DNA of 64,000 nucleotides from Coleofasciculus sp. FACHB-1120 (GTDB lineage Bacteria; Cyanobacteriota; Cyanobacteriia; Cyanobacteriales; FACHB-T130): contig NZ_JACJTV010000002.1 of the NCBI RefSeq assembly GCF_014698845.1, forward strand, positions 1 to 64,000, written 5' to 3'. A model generated the notes under the pieces. The model saw nothing but the letters and a program-made list of their open reading frames with translations. It searched no databases and had not been told where the DNA came from. Positions 28,035 to 37,830 of the stretch are shown here, in pieces (position 1 is the first letter of the stretch; the number at the start of each line of letters is the position of its first letter). A program made the position numbers and the translations under genes.

Positions 28035-28553
28035 ATGTTAGATGCATTCGCCAAGGTTGTTTCTCAGGCTGATGCCCGGGGTGAATTCTTGAGCACCGAG
28101 CAGCTCGATGCCCTGACCAATGTTGTCAAGGATGGCAGCAAGCGTTTGGATACCGTTAACCGCATCACCAGCAATGCTTCCAGCATCGTTGCCAATGCCG
28201 CTCGTGCTTTGTTTGAAGAGCAGCCTCAACTGATTCAACCAGGTGGAAACGCATACACCAACCGTCGCATGGCAGCTTGCCTCCGCGACATGGAAATCAT
28301 CCTGCGCTACGTTACCTACGCCACAATCGCAGGTGATTCTAGCGTGTTGGATGACCGCTGCTTGAACGGTCTGCGCGAAACCTACCAAGCTCTAGGCGTT
28401 CCTGGTGGTTCTGTTGCTGCTGGCGTCCAAAAGATGAAAGAAGCTGCCGTCAAAATCGCTAACGATCCCAATGGCATCACCAAGGGTGACTGTAGCCAAC
28501 TGATGTCTGAAGTAGCTAGCTACTTCGATCGTGCTTCATCTGCGGTTGCTTAA
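28035..28553 (+). CDS. cpcB: C-phycocyanin beta subunit
   Basis: CpcB pairs with CpcA in the light-harvesting rods of the phycobilisome and carries two phycocyanobilins. The 172-residue length is exact for the family. Cys82 lies in [20 protein letters not shown] and Cys153 in [13 protein letters not shown]. Asn72, which is methylated in the family, lies in [10 protein letters not shown]. The sequence is clearly phycocyanin rather than phycoerythrocyanin or allophycocyanin. It is the first gene of the cpc operon and is preceded by a strong ribosome site. The N-terminus reads [20 protein letters not shown] rather than the usual MTFDVFTKVV, a modest variation. Confidence 0.98.
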
Positions 28554-28645
28554 GAACAACTAGCAAGCTTGCTGTTGGATAGGCGCGAACATGCGCGTTG
28601 TTTAGTCGAAAACTTTGCAAACACTTTTAGGGAGATACCTCAACA

Positions 28646-29134
28646 ATGAAGACCCCGATTACTGAAGCCATCGGTGCAGCCGATACCCAAGGTCGTTTCT
28701 TAGGCAACACCGAACTGACTGCTGTTAACGGTCGCTTTGAGCGTGCCGCTGCCAGCATGGAAGCTGCCCGCGCATTGACCCAAAAGGCTCAGCAACTGAT
28801 TGATGGTGCTGCTCAAGCCGTGTACCAAAAGTTCCCATACACCACCCAAATGCAGGGACCTCAGTATGCTGCTGACTCTCGCGGCAAATCCAAGTGTGCC
28901 CGTGACATCGGCCACTACCTGCGGATGGTTACTTACTGTCTAGTTGCTGGTGGTACAGGTCCAATGGACGAGTACCTGATTGCCGGTTTGGATGAAATCA
29001 ACCGTACATTCGAGCTGTCCAACAGCTGGTATGTGGAAGCTCTGAAGAACATCAAGGCCAATCATGGTCTGAGCGGTCAAGCTGCTAACGAAGCCAACAC
29101 CTACATCGACTACGCCATTAACGCCCTGAGCTAG
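28646..29134 (+). CDS. cpcA: C-phycocyanin alpha subunit
   Basis: CpcA (162 residues, the normal length) binds one phycocyanobilin at Cys84 in [20 protein letters not shown]. The start [20 protein letters not shown] and the end [10 protein letters not shown] are standard. The bilin is expected to be attached by the CpcE/CpcF lyase encoded downstream. The ribosome site GGGAGA lies at normal distance. The gap to cpcB is 92 bp. Confidence 0.98.
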
Positions 29135-29147
29135 TATTCAGGTGCGG

Positions 29148-29209
29148 TGCCCGGAAGAATCAGCGAGTGTTGGCGCGTGCTTGCTAGCAGTTGCTAATTT
29201 TTCCGGGCA
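29148..29209 (+). terminator. Attenuator-like hairpin between cpcA and cpcC
   Basis: The arms tgcccggaa (29148-29156) and ttccgggca (29201-29209) form a perfect 9-bp stem followed by ttgtttttct. In other cpc operons a hairpin at this place reduces readthrough, so that subunits are made in excess of linkers. The same role is inferred here. Confidence 0.7.
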
Positions 29210-29268
29210 TTGTTTTTCTCAATTTGAGTAAAAAAATCTTAAAAAGTTGTTGCGTTGGGAGAGCAAGA

Positions 29269-30144
29269 ATGGCCGGTTTAGTGGCGTCGAATTTAGCAGC
29301 AGCAGGCCGCCTAGGTCTTTCTGCATTTGATGAAACACGGGTGGAACTGCGGCCTGACTGGACAGAGGACGATCTGCAAGCGGTAATCCGCGCGGTTTAC
29401 CGTCAGGTATTAGGCAACGATTACATCATGAAATCGGAACGCCTGACCTATGCTGAATCGCAGCTTCGGCAAGGAAATATAACGGTAAGAGATTTTGTCC
29501 GCGCGATCGCTAAGTCAGATCTATACAAAAACAAGTTTTTCTTTCGCAATTCCAATACCCGCTTGATTGAACTCAATTACAAGCATTTGCTAGGGCGGGC
29601 ACCTTACAGTGAGGATGAGATAAACTCCCACCTCAATATCTATGAGGAACAGGGGTACGACGCAGAAATCGATTCCTACATCGACAGCGTTGAGTATGAA
29701 GCCAACTTCGGGAACAACGTTGTCCCTTATTATCGTGGATTTATGGTAGAGCCGGGAGTGAGAACGACCGGCTTTACTCGTATGTTCCGCCTGTATCGGG
29801 GTTATGCGAATAGCGATAGCTCTCAAGTTGGAGGGAAAACTCCCCGACTGATGGGCGAACTGAGCCGAAATGAGGCTTCTACAATTTTCCAACCCTCTGG
29901 TAGTTCTTCGTCCTGGAGATCGGCAGCGATTCCTCAAGACGCAGCCCCCAGAAAAGCCCTCGGTGGTACGAAGGAACAAAGCGGACGGGTTTATCGCATT
30001 GAAGTGTCTGGAATTCTCAGCCCAGGCTACCCGAAAGTTCGTCGCAGTAGCAACGCCTTCCTAGTGCCCTACGAGCAGCTGTCCCAAAAACTACAGCAAA
30101 TTACCAAACAGGGCGGCAAAATTGTCAGCGTTTCACCCGCTTAA
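29269..30144 (+). CDS. cpcC: Phycocyanin-associated rod linker (32-35 kDa type)
   Basis: CpcC joins phycocyanin hexamers within the rod. The protein (~291 residues from ATG 29269, with GGGAGAG upstream) has an N-terminal PBS linker domain ([20 protein letters not shown] ... [20 protein letters not shown] ... [18 protein letters not shown]). A basic Ser-rich hinge follows, and then a C-terminal CpcD-like domain ([20 protein letters not shown] ... [17 protein letters not shown]). The longer open frame to 29191 would run through the hairpin and is rejected. Confidence 0.95.
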
Positions 30145-30283
30145 GGTGAACGAATTCTAAGTGTTATCGCACTTAGTCTTTTTTGAATTAGTCTTTTTTG
30201 ACAATGGTGATGACATGAAACTTGATGGTTGGTGTCATCACCCCTCAACTGTTTTCAACCCAATTACAGGAGCTATTTCAACG

Positions 30284-30586
30284 ATGTTTGGACAAACTGC
30301 ACTTGGGAGCGGTACTTTGGGTGACGCTGCCAATCGGGTATTTCGCTACGAAGTCGAAGGTTTACGTCAGACTTACGAATCTGACAAACTCAGCTATCCC
30401 ATTCGCCGTAGTGGCAGTTTCTATATCACAGTGCCCTACAGCCGCATGAATGAAGAAATGCAGCGGATTAACCGCATGGGTGGCAGAATCGTCAACATTC
30501 AGCCCTTAACTCTGGATGGAGACAGCGAAGCGAAAAGCCAAGCGACAACAGCCCATCAAAATCATGACGCTGAAGGCAAGAGCTAA
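30284..30586 (+). CDS. cpcD: Rod-capping linker
   Basis: CpcD caps the outer end of the phycocyanin rod. The core, MFGQTALGSGTLGDAANRVF, then FRYEVEGLRQTY and MQRINRMGGRIVNIQPL, is the CpcD domain. ATG 30284 has AGGAG nearby and is the family start; a longer frame from 30161 is rejected. Beyond the usual end (~residue 73) the protein carries an extra hydrophilic tail of ~27 residues (TLDGDSEAKSQATTAHQNHD) that most CpcD proteins lack. Confidence 0.93.
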   Translation: MFGQTALGSGTLGDAANRVFRYEVEGLRQTYESDKLSYPIRRSGSFYITVPYSRMNEEMQRINRMGGRIVNIQPLTLDGDSEAKSQATTAHQNHDAEGKS

Positions 30587-30654
30587 GCCGATTCAGCTCA
30601 TCCAGAAAGCCCATTCAACCATGCTCGTAAACGCCAAGTCATTGCACTCCTACG

Positions 30655-31527
30655 ATGCGATCGCCTAATCCCGATCGATATTCTGAATCAGACTCACCGT
30701 CCGGAAATTCACCGGGTAGCGAACCGCTAACGGTGGAGCAGGCAATTGCCAATCTCCGCCATGAAGATTTAAGTCTCCGCTACTATGCTGCCTGGTGGCT
30801 AGGTAAATTCCGCGTGCGCGAGTCTGCTGCTGTGGAAGCTCTGATTACAGCTTTGGAAGATGAATCGGATCGGACAGAGCTAGGCGGATACCCCCTCCGT
30901 CGCAATGCCGCACGAGCGCTAGGAAAACTCAGCGATCGCCGAGCCGTGCCAGGGCTGATTCGTTGTTTGGGTTGTGCTGACTTCTATGTTCGAGAAGCCG
31001 CAGCTCAATCCTTGGGAATGCTGGGCGATCGCACTTGCATTCCGGAACTGATGCAACTGCTAGAAGGGGGTGTGGCAGCCGCTCTGCCAGTACCAGGGCG
31101 GCCCCATCTGACACAACCCTATGAAGCAGTGCTGGAAGCCTTAGGAGCGCTTCAAGCGGCGGAAGCAACTGCTCAGATTCAACCGTTTCTGGAGCATCCT
31201 GTCGCGCGGGTGCAATATGCAGCAGCACGGGCAATGTACCAGTTAACGGAAGATTCCGTCTATGGGGAACGTTTGGTTCAAGCGTTGGAAGGCAGCGATC
31301 TGCAACTGCGCCGCATCGTATTATCAGACTTGGGTGCGATTGGTTATCTGCCAGCAGCGGAAGCGATCGCTAGTGCTGCCACTGAAAATAGCTTTAAACT
31401 GATTGCCCTTAAAGGGCTGCTGGAACACGTGCAGGCGCGAGCGATCGCGTCTTTACAGCCAGATGAACCAAATTCGCTATCCGCTGACGCCATCAGGGTG
31501 ATGACCCTGATGGATGCTTTGTTATAG
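30655..31527 (+). CDS. cpcE: Phycocyanobilin lyase subunit alpha
   Basis: CpcE and CpcF form the E/F-type lyase that attaches phycocyanobilin to Cys84 of CpcA. The 290-residue protein is built from HEAT-like repeats, with LSLRYYAAWWLGKFRVRESA, PLRRNAARALGKLSDRRAVP, and FYVREAAAQSLGMLGDRTCI as repeat units. The first codons contain a HIP1 octamer (atgcgatcgcctaat). It sits 68 bp after cpcD in the same operon. Confidence 0.95.
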   Translation: MRSPNPDRYSESDSPSGNSPGSEPLTVEQAIANLRHEDLSLRYYAAWWLGKFRVRESAAVEALITALEDESDRTELGGYPLRRNAARALGKLSDRRAVPGLIRCLGCADFYVREAAAQSLGMLGDRTCIPELMQLLEGGVAAALPVPGRPHLTQPYEAVLEALGALQAAEATAQIQPFLEHPVARVQYAAARAMYQLTEDSVYGERLVQALEGSDLQLRRIVLSDLGAIGYLPAAEAIASAATENSFKLIALKGLLEHVQARAIASLQPDEPNSLSADAIRVMTLMDALL

Positions 31528-31635
31528 TCAATTGTCCTTTCCTAATAGCGAATTGCTAGTAGCAAATGGCAATTCACCACTAGCAAAGCAATCAGTAAGT
31601 AGATAGACATAAATTAAACAGCAAGTAGCCTATAG

Positions 31636-31690
31636 GTAGGGTGGGCACTGCCCACCCATTGCACGGCACTGGTGGCAGTCCCCACCCTAC
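31636..31690. repeat. GC-rich inverted repeat between cpcE and cpcF
   Basis: gtagggtggg (from 31636) pairs with cccaccctac (31681-31690), enclosing a second palindrome gtgggcactgcccac. This is a dispersed-type 'gtagggtgggca' cyanobacterial repeat within the 252-bp cpcE-cpcF gap. It could reduce transcription into cpcF. Confidence 0.6.
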
Positions 31691-31723
31691 TGCTTCGTTT
31701 ATTTATGCTCAGCTACTTAAAAA

Positions 31724-31758
31724 ATGGCAATTGACAATTCGCAATTCGCGATTGACCA
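31724..31758 (+). repeat. Heptameric repeats upstream of cpcF
   Basis: Five 7-base units (atggcaa, ttgacaa, ttcgcaa, ttcgcga, ttgacca) end 21 bp before the cpcF start. Further degenerate units (gaattgc, tagtagc, aaatggc) lie near 31548. Confidence 0.75.
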
Positions 31759-31779
31759 CCGAGCGCCGATGATGGACTA

Positions 31780-32403
31780 ATGACTGATTCGCCCCAAGAA
31801 CTGATTCGTGCCATTGAACAGGCGGATTCTCCTGGACGCTTGGTGGCGTCAGTTCGAGCCTTAGCTGCCACTCGTCTAGAAGTTGGGATTCCTACCCTGA
31901 TCGCCGTCTTAGGTTACAACAACCCAGGAGCGGCTGTAGCAGCAGTAGAAGGGCTGATTCAGTTAGGGGAAATTGCCGTACAACCCTTACTGGAAAAACT
32001 GGACGCCTATGACTACGGTGCCAGGGCTTATGCGATTCGTGCCTTAGCCGGGATCGCTGACCCCCGTGCCTTAGACATCTTAGTAGAGGCAGCAGCCACC
32101 GACTTCGCGCCCAGCGTCCGCCGCGCTGCTGCGAAAGGGCTGGGAAACCTCCACTGGCACTCGTTGCATCCTGACCAGATTCAAAGTGCGATCGCTAGGG
32201 CATTGGAAACCCTGTTGCTCATTTCTCAAGACCAAGACTGGGCGATTCGCTACGCTGCTGTTGTCGGCTTGCAAGCACTCTCCACCCAGTTGGAAGTCCG
32301 CCCGTCCATCCAAAAGCGATTAGCGGAAATGGCTTTAGATAATGACCCAGCAGTTCGTGCCAGAGTTCAGCTGGCTCACCAGTCATTAGTGATGAGTCCT
32401 TAG
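31780..32403 (+). CDS. cpcF: Phycocyanobilin lyase subunit beta
   Basis: This is the partner of CpcE. The 207-residue protein is made of HEAT-like repeats, for example LATLIAVLGYNNPGAAVAAV-type (here PTLIAVLGYNNPGAAVAAVE), YDYGARAYAIRALAGIADPR, FAPSVRRAAAKGLGNLHWHS and DWAIRYAAVVGLQALSTQLE. These are the signatures of CpcF. It stands 252 bp behind cpcE, a gap that holds an inverted repeat and heptamers rather than a clear promoter. No strong ribosome site precedes ATG 31780. Confidence 0.95.
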   Translation: MTDSPQELIRAIEQADSPGRLVASVRALAATRLEVGIPTLIAVLGYNNPGAAVAAVEGLIQLGEIAVQPLLEKLDAYDYGARAYAIRALAGIADPRALDILVEAAATDFAPSVRRAAAKGLGNLHWHSLHPDQIQSAIARALETLLLISQDQDWAIRYAAVVGLQALSTQLEVRPSIQKRLAEMALDNDPAVRARVQLAHQSLVMSP

Positions 32404-32439
32404 CAAAGGCTCATTCGTCTTTTATTCATGGACTCATCA

Positions 32440-32467
32440 CTAACAGCTAACAACTAACAACTAACAA
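32440..32467 (+). repeat. Four heptamers directly upstream of cpcG1
   Basis: The units ctaacag, ctaacaa, ctaacaa, ctaacaa end eight bases before the ATG of the first cpcG, with only caaaaaat between. No Shine-Dalgarno sequence is present. Confidence 0.85.
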
Positions 32468-32475
32468 CAAAAAAT

Positions 32476-33309
32476 ATGCCAATTCCACTTCTTGAAATTA
32501 CACCAACCACGCAGAATCAGCGTGTAGAAGGGTACGAAGTACCTGATGAGGACGACGCACAGATTTATCGATTGACAGATGCGACCTCTGAAACGGCAAT
32601 TAATGACTTGATCTGGGCTGCCTACCGGCAAATCATCAGCGAACATTTAATTTTAGAAAGCTACCGCCAACCTTTTCTGGAATCTCAACTGCGGAATCGA
32701 GCCATATCCGTGCGCGAGTTTATTCGAGGATTGGGCAAGTCCGATGTTTATCGGCAGTTGGTAGCAGACACGAACTCCAACTACCGCTTAGTTGACATCA
32801 CCTTCAAGCGGTTTCTGGGACGCGCCACCTACGGCAAAGACGAGCAAATTGCTTGGTCAATTGTCATTGCTTCCAAGGGATTGCATGGCTTTATCGATGC
32901 CGTTGTTGATAGCGAAGAATACCGCCAGAACTTCGGCGATGAGATTGTCCCTTATCAGCGCCGCCGGTTTAACGAGCGACCCTTTAACTTGGTCAACCCC
33001 CGGTACAGTGATTACTGGCGCGGTCGCATGATGGGTCTGGATACTCGGAGTTACTTTCAAGTCGGGGGTCAAAACCCAGTGGGTAAAACATCGGTTCGGG
33101 AAGCAATTCCTAGCACCTTCTTGGCAATGGCTCGGAGTATTGCCCCAAGCGAAGTTAACTACCAGCGCACCAGAGATCGGGTACTCTCTCAAGTTAAAAA
33201 CATGGAGATTCCCGACACGACTAGCAAAGCTGCCAACTTGCAACCTGCTGTAGGTCGCACCGACGTAGCCCTCCCCTACCGCTACCTTTATCCGACGCCA
33301 AAAGCCTAA
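32476..33309 (+). CDS. cpcG1: Phycobilisome rod-core linker, copy 1
   Basis: CpcG joins the phycocyanin rods to the allophycocyanin core. The 277-residue protein starts [20 protein letters not shown]. It has the PBS linker domain ([20 protein letters not shown] ... RFLGRATYGKDEQIAWSIVI ... SEEYRQNFGDEIVPYQRRRF), followed by the conserved RPFNLVNPRYSDYWR. The C-terminal ~100 residues are more variable (NPVGKTSVREAIPSTFLAMA). There is no C-terminal hydrophobic segment, so it is a core-binding CpcG, not a thylakoid-binding CpcL. Confidence 0.95.
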   Translation: MPIPLLEITPTTQNQRVEGYEVPDEDDAQIYRLTDATSETAINDLIWAAYRQIISEHLILESYRQPFLESQLRNRAISVREFIRGLGKSDVYRQLVADTNSNYRLVDITFKRFLGRATYGKDEQIAWSIVIASKGLHGFIDAVVDSEEYRQNFGDEIVPYQRRRFNERPFNLVNPRYSDYWRGRMMGLDTRSYFQVGGQNPVGKTSVREAIPSTFLAMARSIAPSEVNYQRTRDRVLSQVKNMEIPDTTSKAANLQPAVGRTDVALPYRYLYPTPKA

Positions 33310-33312
33310 AGG

Positions 33313-33361
33313 CTCATGGCTTATCGCTAATCGTTCATGGTTCATGGCAATTAGCAATCCC
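33313..33361 (+). repeat. Heptameric repeats between cpcG1 and cpcG2
   Basis: Seven 7-base units (ctcatgg, cttatcg, ctaatcg, ttcatgg, ttcatgg, caattag, caatccc) fill most of the 78-bp gap, ending 26 bp before the cpcG2 start. Confidence 0.78.
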
Positions 33362-33387
33362 ACCAGATAGGAACTAACAATTTACCT

Positions 33388-34134
33388 ATGTCAATCCCTT
33401 TGCTTTCATACAAACCCAGTTCGCAGAACCAGAGAGTAGCGGGTTACGAAGTGCCGAACGAAGACACTCCCCGGACTTATCGGATTGAGAACTGCATCGA
33501 CAATGGCGACCTTGAGGAATTAATCTGGGCAGCCTACCGTCAGGTTTTCAGCGAACACGAAATCCTCAATTCTTTTCGTCAGGCTGACTTGGAATCTCAA
33601 GTGAAGAACCGCGCCATTACTGTGCGCGACTTCATCCGAGGTCTGGCGAAGACCGAAGGCTTTTACCGCTTGGTTGTTGAGAAAAACTCCAACTATCGAG
33701 TCGTCGAAGTTTGCCTCAAACGAATCTTGGGCAGGGCACCCTACAACAAAGACGAAGAAATTGCCTGGTCGATTAAAATTGCCACTAAGGGGCTGAGCGG
33801 CTTCATTGATGCCCTCGTTGATAGTGAGGAGTATCAGTCTAACTTTGGCAACAATACGGTGCCTTATCAGCGTCGTCGCTACAAAGATCGACCCTTTAAC
33901 TTGGTGACGCCTAGCTACGCCGATTACTGGCGTGATCAGGAAGAAAGTGCGCGCTACAAATGGGGCAATGTGCGTAACTTCTTGGATATGGCACGGGCAA
34001 TCAACCCGAAAGCCGTCACCAATACTGTTACCGTTAACACGGCTAACATCAAAATTCCCGACATGACACGGGATAATACAGCGCAAGAGACACGAGTCTC
34101 GATTAACTCGCAAGCGAGTTTTCCACTCCGGTAG
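33388..34134 (+). CDS. cpcG2: Phycobilisome rod-core linker, copy 2
   Basis: This is the second tandem cpcG (248 residues). It shares [60 protein letters not shown] and [20 protein letters not shown] with its neighbours and plainly arose by duplication. The C-terminus is short and polar (SINSQASFPLR), again with no membrane anchor. Paralogous CpcG proteins are thought to place rods at different core positions; which position this copy serves is not evident. Confidence 0.94.
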   Translation: MSIPLLSYKPSSQNQRVAGYEVPNEDTPRTYRIENCIDNGDLEELIWAAYRQVFSEHEILNSFRQADLESQVKNRAITVRDFIRGLAKTEGFYRLVVEKNSNYRVVEVCLKRILGRAPYNKDEEIAWSIKIATKGLSGFIDALVDSEEYQSNFGNNTVPYQRRRYKDRPFNLVTPSYADYWRDQEESARYKWGNVRNFLDMARAINPKAVTNTVTVNTANIKIPDMTRDNTAQETRVSINSQASFPLR

Positions 34135-34214
34135 CATGGGGATTCCATCGACCAGAGGATACCCTGATGCTGGAAAATAGGAAGTCTCAACCACTTTATA
34201 AGGGAGATTTTTAA

Positions 34215-34976
34215 ATGGCACTGCCATTACTGGAATACAAACCAACCACCCAAAACCAACGAGTTAAGAGCTTTGGAAAGGCGGATCTTGACGAAGATAC
34301 GCCATACATCTATCGCGTGGAAGATGCCAATTCACCGATAGAAATGGAAGAGCTGATTTGGGCGGCTTATCGCCAAGTCTTCAGCGAGCATGAAATCCTC
34401 AAATTCAACCGTCAGATTACTCTGGAATCTCAGCTGAAAAATGCGGCGATTACAGTACGGGAATTTATTGCTGGTCTGGCGAAGTCAGAGGCATTTTACC
34501 GTGTGGTTGTCTCGGTCAATAACAACTATCGGCTTGTAAACATTTGTCTCAAGCGCTTTTTAGGTCGGGAGCCTTACAACAAAGCTGAAGAAATCGCTTG
34601 GTCAATTAAAATTGCCACTTTGGGATTCAGCGGTTTTGTTGATGCCTTGGTGAACAGCCAAGAATATACTGACAACTTTGGGGACTTCACCGTACCCTAC
34701 CAGCGTAAGCGGATGGAACAGCGTCCTTTCAACCTAGTGACGCCTCGCTATGGCGAAGACTTCCGCGAAACTGCTGGCACTGTCAAGACCGATTGGCGCT
34801 TCACTGTGGAGAAGTTCTACAGCCGCAAGAACCAGGAGCGGCAACTTCCCGAAGGCGATCCCCGCCGGTTCCGCGAGGTAGCGGCATCGCTCAGTACCAA
34901 GCGCAACTACCCACAACGGGTCTCTGCGTTTGATATTGATTACCTCAGTCGAGTGCCCGTGCGTGGCAACCGCTAA
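34215..34976 (+). CDS. cpcG3: Phycobilisome rod-core linker, copy 3
   Basis: This third tandem cpcG (253 residues) starts [20 protein letters not shown] and shares [20 protein letters not shown] and [20 protein letters not shown] with copy 2. Its C-terminus differs: [20 protein letters not shown], then [20 protein letters not shown]. This basic tail may set core-binding specificity. It has a good ribosome site (AAGGGAGA) at 34200-34207, unlike copy 1. It ends the operon. Confidence 0.94.
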
Positions 34977-35233: not shown

Positions 35234-35680
35234 TTATTGCTGGTTGCTAAGGCGTAGTATCTCTCGTACTTCTACTAAAATTTGTCCCAACATATTCTTG
35301 CCACTGCCATCAGCACCGCAACCCCAATAATAATCACCGGGTGCATTTTCAACAATTAACTCATCGCCGGTAGAAAGTAATTCTTCGCGAATGTCGGCAT
35401 GAGTTTCAAATTTGCGTAGCACGGCTTTTCGCATAATGTCATCTTTTACCTGTTCCCAATCGGGACGCAGGGGACGCGATCGCTCTCGTCCCATTTTCGC
35501 CGCATCCTTCGGTGTCTTTACCTGGCGAATTTGGTCAGCGTGGGGTGTACCAACAAACTTTTGTGCTTGAAAATAATGTTCGCTGGTAGGCCAATAGAAC
35601 CCATCTAATTCAAAGCCGTGAGGCGAAAAATTGGAGAAACAACCATATTTTTCGCGAGTGCTGTAAAAGTAAATTGTCAT
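35234..35680 (-). CDS. NADAR-family ADP-ribose hydrolase (DUF1768)
   Basis: NADAR proteins are a family of N-glycosidases related to YbiA; characterised members remove ADP-ribose from modified guanine in DNA or act on related ADP-ribose or riboflavin-pathway compounds. The 148-residue protein shows the expected blocks: IYFYSTREKYGCFSNFSPHG (with the SNFSP motif), FYWPTSEHYFQAQKFVGTPH (the PTxEHYFQAQKF motif with the active-site Glu), AAKMGRERSRPLRPDWEQVK, MRKAVLRKF, and GSGKNMLGQILVEVR at the end. It lies 76 bp behind the HPF1-like gene on the same strand, so the two are probably co-transcribed. No DarT-type toxin is adjacent. It could reverse ADP-ribosylation promoted by the upstream protein. 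Confidence 0.88.
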   Translation of the reverse strand: MTIYFYSTREKYGCFSNFSPHGFELDGFYWPTSEHYFQAQKFVGTPHADQIRQVKTPKDAAKMGRERSRPLRPDWEQVKDDIMRKAVLRKFETHADIREELLSTGDELIVENAPGDYYWGCGADGSGKNMLGQILVEVREILRLSNQQ

Positions 35681-35756: not shown

Positions 35757-37346
35757 CTAATAAATATCGACCGACTGGCGCGATCGCTGTTGATAATGGA
35801 CAGATGCGATCGCAGCCAAAGCATCTCGACCGAGGGCGCGGTAGGCTGTATTCAGCAGTTTAGCAGCAGCCGCTTCTCGTTCCCGATCGCCACCGGAAAA
35901 CCAGTGCAAGTCACGACCTAACGCCAACGCCTCAGCCGGTTGACCCTCGGCACAAGCTTTTAGTGCTGCTGCAATCCAGTCTTCGACAATTGGCGCATCC
36001 TCTAAAATAGCTGTTCTAATTACTTCAAGATCGCGCTGAGGAAAAGTTTCGGTGCTGAAGCCGGGAATTGCGACCCCCGCGCCATCATCAGTCGCAATCC
36101 TGAAATCCAGCGGCGGTTGCTTGTAGGCTTTCTCGTACAGACTTCCCATTTCAGGGCGTTCCGCCGTTTCAAACGCCATTACCGCATCGCGGAGTGCTGA
36201 GAGTCTAACTCGTTGATGCCGGGAATCGTTGTCGTAGCGGTCATATTCCAACTGAGAGACCGCTTTTTCGATTTGAAAGCGAACCTGTTGAAGTAATGTT
36301 TGACAACCGTCATCACAGACAGGAATGCCGTCATTGTTCCAGTAATATTTCACACTCGTGGGAAGTTCTCTGGGATCATCGTACCAAAGACCAAAATGCA
36401 GACCATCGCCGCCCCCGTACAGCAAAGTGAGAAACTCTGGCGGATCGCGGTAATAGCGGTAATGCAAGCGATGGTCAAGTTCTAATATAGGTTTTCGCTG
36501 CAAACCTTCATGACTGAATAAATCAAACAAACCGCAAGGCGTTGCAATCCATTGCATTTCTTGCCGTTCAATCGGAGTTAAGCTGAGCCAAAAAGCCCAG
36601 AATCCAAAAACATGGTCGGGTAAGGTCAAGCCGTGGGTTTGTTGCACTAGCGATCTCACGGGTTCCACCAACGCTTGCGCTTTTTGTTGGGCATCCAGGC
36701 GCATCTGCTCGATCGTGGCGGCATCCGGCAGATTTTCCTGACGCCATGCCATATATTCCGCTTTCCAGGAACGTTCATTTGCCGCTTGCCACAGATGCCG
36801 CCAGATATCCGTCCAATGACCTGAATCATCAGGGCATTCTTTAATTTGCTGACGCGCTGCTTTGTAGAATTCTTCGTGCCGATAGGAGTTTGGTGTCCAG
36901 CGTTCTGTTTCTGTTTCCCAGCGTTGTTTTGCCCATGAAACGCCATGTTCTGCGATCGCTGTAAAAGATGCTTCAAAAGCATTTAGCAAAGTCTGTCGTT
37001 CTCCGGCAACTTTCGCCTCAAATTCTTGACGAAATGCTTGGAAAACAGACCATTCGGCAACTAAATCATCCTCTGGTCGATCCAACTGCTTCAGCCACCA
37101 ATTATCAAATTCCTCCTGAAGCATCTGTTCAATATCTTTTTCAATCTCATCCCGGAAGCGAGGACGCGGATCTTCCCCCAGTAACTCGAATTGCTCTTGA
37201 TTTAGGGTGATTTCTGCTTTGCGACCCAATATTTCGACTTCAACAACAAGCTTTTCTCCGGGTTGCAACTTGACTACAACACCCTGAAAATCACTAAAGG
37301 GACCTGCGGTAATCGCTCCTACGCTTCCTGGTTTGAAATTTTTCAT
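35757..37346 (-). CDS. KOW (NusG-C-like) + HPF1-like/DUF2228 ADP-ribosylation-family protein
   Basis: The ~529-residue protein has three parts. Residues ~8-62 (counting from the upstream GTG at 37361) closely follow the KOW domain at the C-terminus of NusG: GSVGAITAGPFSDFQGVVVK, then VEVEILGRKAEITLNQEQFE. Residues ~65-230 are charged and helical. Residues ~235-534 resemble eukaryotic HPF1: LTLPDHVFGFWAFW, then HYRYYRDPPEFLTLLYGGGD with HFGLWYDDPRELP, DDGAGVAIP, and LALGRDLHWFSG. Aligned from memory to human HPF1, Glu472 falls at the Glu that completes the PARP active site; Arg is not obviously kept. ATG 37346 follows GGAGGGAGGAA and is the start. It is followed by a NADAR hydrolase gene. Function is inferred, not shown. 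Confidence 0.75.
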   Translation of the reverse strand: MKNFKPGSVGAITAGPFSDFQGVVVKLQPGEKLVVEVEILGRKAEITLNQEQFELLGEDPRPRFRDEIEKDIEQMLQEEFDNWWLKQLDRPEDDLVAEWSVFQAFRQEFEAKVAGERQTLLNAFEASFTAIAEHGVSWAKQRWETETERWTPNSYRHEEFYKAARQQIKECPDDSGHWTDIWRHLWQAANERSWKAEYMAWRQENLPDAATIEQMRLDAQQKAQALVEPVRSLVQQTHGLTLPDHVFGFWAFWLSLTPIERQEMQWIATPCGLFDLFSHEGLQRKPILELDHRLHYRYYRDPPEFLTLLYGGGDGLHFGLWYDDPRELPTSVKYYWNNDGIPVCDDGCQTLLQQVRFQIEKAVSQLEYDRYDNDSRHQRVRLSALRDAVMAFETAERPEMGSLYEKAYKQPPLDFRIATDDGAGVAIPGFSTETFPQRDLEVIRTAILEDAPIVEDWIAAALKACAEGQPAEALALGRDLHWFSGGDREREAAAAKLLNTAYRALGRDALAAIASVHYQQRSRQSVDIY

Positions 37347-37830
37347 TTCCTCCCTCCTCACGGCATCGCCAAGCGGATGCGGGGTAAGCGCAGCGGTCTT
37401 GCAACTAGCACTCCTCGCTTGTCTAAAGTTCTCTTGTCAGGCTCTTAAACCATCTTTATTTTACTGGGATGACTAGCGGCAAATCTCTACTTTTGGGTAT
37501 CCTTCCGGTAGGCTCAGAAGCACTACTATTGGCTTCTTAGCTGCTGTACAGCCACTGATAAGCAATCGAGAATCAGAAATAAAATTTCACTATTTTATAC
37601 TTTTTATGATTTTTATTTTAAGTGATATTTTCAGAAAATGTTGAGGATTAGCTCAAATAAAATATAATAGTTTATTGTTTTTTTTATTAAAATAGTTCCC
37701 TTTGTGGTTTCCACTATCCTGAAATGAAAAAGCTCGACTAACATAGAGTAACGGGAAACACTGAAGTACAAGCATGATGGTAACGCTTGGTTCGCATCAT
37801 TTTTGAAATAATTAGCAACTTCCAACTAAT
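37347..37830. other. AT-rich gap upstream of the HPF1-like gene
   Basis: About 480 bp separating the HPF1-like gene from the response regulator. The first ~90 bp contain the HPF1-gene ribosome site and a GC-rich repeat-like patch (ggcatcgccaagcggatgcg). 37560-37700 is very AT-rich (>75% by eye). No gene is supported; a 64-codon frame at 37631-37825 has no resemblance to anything. Confidence 0.4.

Follow-up and report, generated by a model that had tools for sequence, protein, structure and literature searches.

A NusG-type KOW domain fused to an HPF1-family protein in Coleofasciculus sp. FACHB-1120

HPF1 is a cofactor of PARP enzymes, and not a transferase in its own right. A gene for a protein of this family lies in the window analyzed here, a stretch of 64,000 nucleotides from the cyanobacterium Coleofasciculus sp. 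FACHB-1120 (contig NZ_JACJTV010000002.1, positions 1 to 64,000), where it occupies 35757..37346 on the minus strand, stop codon included, and encodes 529 aa from an ATG start; full-length relatives exist. A first-pass annotation of the letters alone had taken its N-terminus (37161-37346, residues 1-62) for a NusG-like KOW domain, and suggested that the fusion might bring ADP-ribosylation to transcribing polymerase or ribosomes. The locus raises two questions: whether the KOW domain is genuine, and what it could be doing on an HPF1 fold in a bacterium. The first has a plain answer. Residues 1-58 (37173..37346, minus strand) are a genuine NusG-type KOW domain fused to an HPF1-family protein, and the earlier coordinates were correct to within four residues.

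Taken singly, the sequence is suggestive of a KOW domain and goes no further, because its match falls under every curated cut-off. Residues 3-54 align to positions 118-170 of the 172 in the NusG model TIGR00922 (NCBIfam), with E values of 2.2e-5 within the whole protein and 4.5e-7 for the segment alone, and the KOW model PF00467 (Pfam) scores 19.0 bits against a curated cut-off of 22.3. The identity becomes firm with a profile built from nine fused KOW segments of HPF1-like proteins and one protein in which KOW is joined to leucine-rich repeats (LRR), because this ten-segment profile, compared with all PDB sequences, ranks NusG first at E 1.6e-13, followed by Spt5 (9e-6) and L24 (0.05). Nine of the ten members also match TIGR00922 individually. 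Conversely, 14 whole genomes were searched with the NusG model, ten with the fusion and four with HPF1 proteins lacking the segment. The host NusG was recovered in all 14; the fusion was matched as well in nine of the ten fusion genomes (E 1.3e-9 to 6.5e-4), the planctomycete being missed, and in the four genomes without the fusion the model gave no second match.

The AlphaFold model of the whole protein (51 sequences in the alignment; pLDDT 90.0, pTM 0.82) contains the KOW part as a five-stranded barrel, with strands at residues 8-12, 21-28, 32-39, 42-49 and 53-58 and a pLDDT of 92-94 over most of it. Residues 2-56 superpose on NusG (2xhc) with Z 11.7 and 0.9 A over 55 residues (Foldseek, VIA-align). 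When the segment was folded on its own the ranking was unchanged, NusG being the top match among small barrels; the models showing the barrel have a pLDDT of 90-92. The proposed fusion is thus borne out by the profile, the genome-wide NusG matches and the predicted barrel, and stands on stronger ground than at the first reading.

A frame-extension artefact as the source of the segment is ruled out by the start site, the substitution pattern and relatives in other phyla that keep the domain. A Shine-Dalgarno-like sequence, read directly from the DNA (AGGAGGGAGG, 37349..37358, minus strand), precedes the ATG, which is preferred as the start because the alternative GTG at 37361 sits just upstream of this element (GAGGAGGGAGGAA-ATG). 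A comparison of the host genome (G000) with that of a sister species (G039; 93% protein identity) gave dN/dS values of 0.03 in the KOW part, 0.16 in the helical part that follows it and 0.19 in the HPF1 part. The KOW value comes from one nonsynonymous and eight synonymous changes, which are few but point in one direction. Judged by these substitutions, no part of the protein is more constrained than the KOW domain, which is evidently under strong purifying selection.

Relatives were gathered from related genomes and from a bacteria-wide set with a single genome for each species, the latter yielding 56 loci. Ten HPF1-like sequences, this copy included, have the KOW segment, and they span four phyla: Cyanobacteriota (two species of this genus), Chloroflexota (Ktedonospora, 46% identity in the best segment), Actinomycetota (Actinomadura, Sphaerisporangium and four Nonomuraea) and Planctomycetota (one bin, with a short ORF). 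The fusion is rare in the order of the host, where relatives of any kind turned up in seven of 195 genomes and the N-terminal part was confined to the two of this genus; when 386 genomes of the phylum were scanned for the HPF1 family, the host genome alone was returned. HPF1-like proteins mostly lack KOW, many consisting of the HPF1-like domain alone or with LRR, and their distribution is patchy, most of the genomes concerned being 6-14 Mb in size. When 200 genomes from the order of Nonomuraea guangzhouensis were searched with a profile, the matches were mostly short and KOW-only, resembling each genome's own NusG, and long ones came from just two (G516 and G520), the latter without the KOW part.

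Between the two domains lies a charged helical linker (residues 59-226, 36669..37172, minus strand), delimited from the alignment and the AlphaFold model, in which residues of about 130-180 are of low confidence; no Pfam match was found for it. It is conserved together with KOW and also occurs without it, as in some actinomycete relatives (L028-L030) in which the helical part is retained and KOW is entirely missing. In Nonomuraea solani, one protein (L120:1489-3131, plus strand) has KOW and the same helical module followed by LRR in place of HPF1, and another (L110:1501-3063, minus strand) carries DUF4241 and, at its C-terminus, a NusG-type KOW, detected at E 5.4e-12 in the genome-wide NusG search; the two lie on one contig about 12 kb apart. 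Because of these two arrangements, KOW can be said to behave as a transferable module.

The gene product is a KOW protein rather than a NusG, because the NusG N-terminal (NGN) domain is not present, the TIGR00922 match being confined to positions 118-170 of 172, and the host encodes a separate full NusG (G000:C2:201650-202222). An origin of the segment from that NusG is unsupported, as the fused KOW is no closer to it (25% identity) than to E. coli NusG (36%), and 55 residues cannot resolve a tree.

The HPF1-like domain occupies residues 227-529 (35760..36668, minus strand). Pfam HPF1 (PF10228) covers residues 290-513 at E 3.1e-13 and 50.4 bits (gathering cut-off 27.1) and was found in 50 of 51 aligned HPF1-like sequences, and HPF1 sequences from the PDB match at E 7.7e-15 to 5.4e-13. 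In the model, residues 228-529 superpose on human HPF1 with Z 27.9 and 2.6 A over 268 residues (Foldseek, VIA-align), and the scores against human, mouse and Nematostella HPF1 are Z 26-28. Seven residues are invariant across the family (E304, F305, T307, G315, H317, G319 and D323); all are in the HPF1 core, and they fall outside the C-terminal region bearing the PARP-binding residues. The conserved core reads RYYxDPPEF-T ... G-H-G ... D, and human HPF1 shares most of DPPEF-T...G-H-G...D. No Pfam SUKH match was found, and the structure-match list, a second place to look for such a relationship, was taken up by KOW barrels.

The active site of eukaryotic PARP1/2 is completed by HPF1, whose Tyr238-Arg239 are required for PARP-1 binding (PMC4858568; PMC8566583), and HPF1 has been presented as a protein of eukaryotes that evolved together with its partner PARP-1 (PMC4858568). 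The counterpart of human Tyr238-Arg239 is missing in the KOW-type proteins; this copy has Thr-Glu, and human HPF1 is longer by four residues in that region. Glu467 is placed against human Glu284 by phmmer, but MAFFT does not pair the two, and its column in the 51 sequences holds Ala in 24, Asp in nine and Glu in five (across the family mostly Ala, Asp, Gln or Glu), so that the catalytic glutamate is not conserved across the bacterial HPF1-like sequences aligned. The PARP catalytic domain PF00644 has no match in the host or sister genome; of the 24 genomes searched, 20 are without a PARP domain at E <= 0.001 and 22 at the curated cut-off. Because the host has no PARP enzyme, the protein probably does not act in the manner of human HPF1. 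The suggestion that it performs or directs ADP-ribosylation is unsupported, since the genome has no PARP, the Tyr-Arg pair is missing, the residue in place of the catalytic glutamate is variable, and HPF1 is no transferase. The simplest reading, we infer, is a PARP-independent role for the conserved core.

Two bins have PARP-family domains together with HPF1-like proteins, a possible PARP-HPF1 pair in each: one of Planctomycetota with a KOW fusion (G525; L077, L081) and one of Microscillaceae with an HPF1-LRR protein (G527; L078). Separately, five HPF1-LRR proteins (L003, L062, L064, L070 and L073), from cyanobacteria, Bacteroidota and a proteobacterial bin, mostly keep Tyr/Phe-Arg (or -Lys) near the position of human Tyr238-Arg239 and mostly carry an acidic residue or Gln near that of Glu284.

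What, then, could KOW be doing here? The KOW domain of NusG contacts S10 and Rho, with I164-F165-G166 touching Rho (PMC7593976). On collided ribosomes, that of MutS2 engages uS10 in a comparable manner, and in KOW-SMR proteins the domain is N-terminal (PMC10897456). In the host and sister genomes Rho is not encoded, their matches reaching at most 24 bits against a cut-off of 509, as expected of other RecA-like ATPases; because the Rho gene is missing, S10 remains the candidate partner. By analogy with these proteins, docking on uS10 is a plausible leading idea for this host. The KOW barrel (1-58) would serve as a docking module binding uS10 (NusE), on the ribosome or a transcription-translation complex; the helical linker (59-226) would space the HPF1-fold domain away from the docking site; and this domain (227-529) would act there through its conserved core, as a PARP-independent effector or ligand sensor and not as a PARP cofactor. 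We hold this combination tentatively, at somewhat under an even chance.

Three points weigh against it. The partner surface drifts: the F-G-R of the NusG loop is kept in seven of ten fused KOW domains, this copy having I-L-G-R, with Leu in place of F165, Ktedonospora FER and Nonomuraea fuscirosea SGR. KOW barrels may also bind RNA or other proteins. Finally, an all-against-all BLAST of flanking ORFs gave no recurrent gene neighbor that would point to a pathway. A wider reading, possible though doubtful, sees a bacterial system not described before, in which KOW would anchor an HPF1-fold domain to the ribosome or transcribing polymerase for regulation of translation or transcription without PARP, possibly an ancestral use of HPF1 from which the eukaryotic PARP cofactor arose.

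The drift of the loop also favors the rival idea that neither S10 nor Rho is what the barrel touches, its target being, for example, RNA or its own HPF1 domain, and that it would be an RNA-binding, autoinhibitory or scaffold element; KOW and the HPF1-like part belong to the same chain and are separated by a stretch of low confidence. However, the Arg of the loop is invariant across the ten sequences and the G-P-F motif nearly invariant, which fits a conserved NusG partner face. In the rest of the loop Gly is near-invariant and Phe is present in eight (Leu in this copy, Ser in L035). We regard this contact elsewhere as rather unlikely.

A tethered ADP-ribosylation factor is a still weaker candidate. 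Here the HPF1 domain would complete some ADP-ribosyltransferase, KOW would bring the reaction to uS10 or RNA polymerase, and a NADAR protein would remove the modification. Apart from the HPF1 homology and fold, the Glu467 placement by phmmer and the PARP-family domains of the planctomycete and Microscillaceae bins, its appeal lies in a NADAR (YbiA-like) gene at 35234-35680, 76 bp downstream on the same (minus) strand, which matches the PADLOC candidate model PDC-M42C at E 4.6e-15. NADARs are described as reversing guanine ADP-ribosylation (PMC11125620). An operon partnership is rejected, however: in the sister species the HPF1 gene is followed by other sequence and NADAR stands next to another gene, and none of the flanks of the genome-scan loci contains a NADAR gene. 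NADAR occurs in 22 of 24 genomes anyway, and in Ktedonospora it and the fusion are on different contigs; the pairing is probably chance or recent. With no PARP in the host or in 20 of 24 genomes, a variable Glu position that shifts in the second alignment and no Tyr238-Arg239 in KOW-type proteins, we consider such a factor improbable. The sister-species contig stops next to the HPF1 gene, in the apparent end of an IS630-type transposase (L002:1-261), and about 970 bp is inserted near the NADAR gene relative to the window (L092). In the window itself, from a host genome of 6.2 Mb, phycobilisome-type genes recognized from their sequences lie at 28035-34976.

Equally improbable is that the HPF1 fold is an immunity or stress sensor of large bacterial genomes, spread like LRR or DUF4241 families, with KOW as one of several interchangeable adaptors: standalone and LRR-fused HPF1-like domains, the two N. 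solani proteins and the patchy distribution in large genomes speak for it, but it has no recurrent neighbor, no PADLOC or Pfam SUKH match and no phage, plasmid or viral-contig relatives. By the same searches, cargo of a mobile element (no such relative) and a known defense system (no PADLOC match for the HPF1-like gene) are both rejected.

The combination of KOW and HPF1 has no description in the literature searched; most subscription journals fell outside it, as did all preprints. An HPF1 family that is conserved in bacteria and mostly without PARP, with one branch linked to a NusG-type KOW, offers a lead on the role of the HPF1 fold before PARP, and the protein is an added candidate among KOW proteins that dock on uS10. 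Its N-terminus is most like the C-terminal KOW of NusG (TIGR00922, PF00467; PDB 2xhc, 1m1g, 2jvv), both in profile score and in the close superposition given above, with 36% identity to the KOW of E. coli and T. maritima NusG; it differs in a shorter loop before strand 3 and in having I-L-G-R for I-F-G-R. To HPF1/C4orf27 (PF10228; PDB 6m3g, 6tx3) the likeness is one of whole-domain fold and of the DPPEF-T ... H-G ... D core, whereas identity is about 22%, the Tyr238-Arg239 pair is absent, the catalytic Glu is not family-conserved, the host is without PARP, and KOW and helical domains are added. MutS2 and KOW-SMR proteins likewise join KOW to an unrelated effector, and the MutS2 KOW docks on uS10 like that of NusG (PMC10897456), but their effector is an SMR or ATPase domain acting on collided ribosomes, with no HPF1 part. 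Also close are the bacterial proteins that have the same HPF1-like domain and no KOW (Streptomyces and relatives; cyanobacterial L004-L007), some of them with LRR (the HPF1-LRR proteins); a Tyr/Phe-Arg pair comparable to human Tyr238-Arg239 is mostly retained in the LRR and planctomycete forms.
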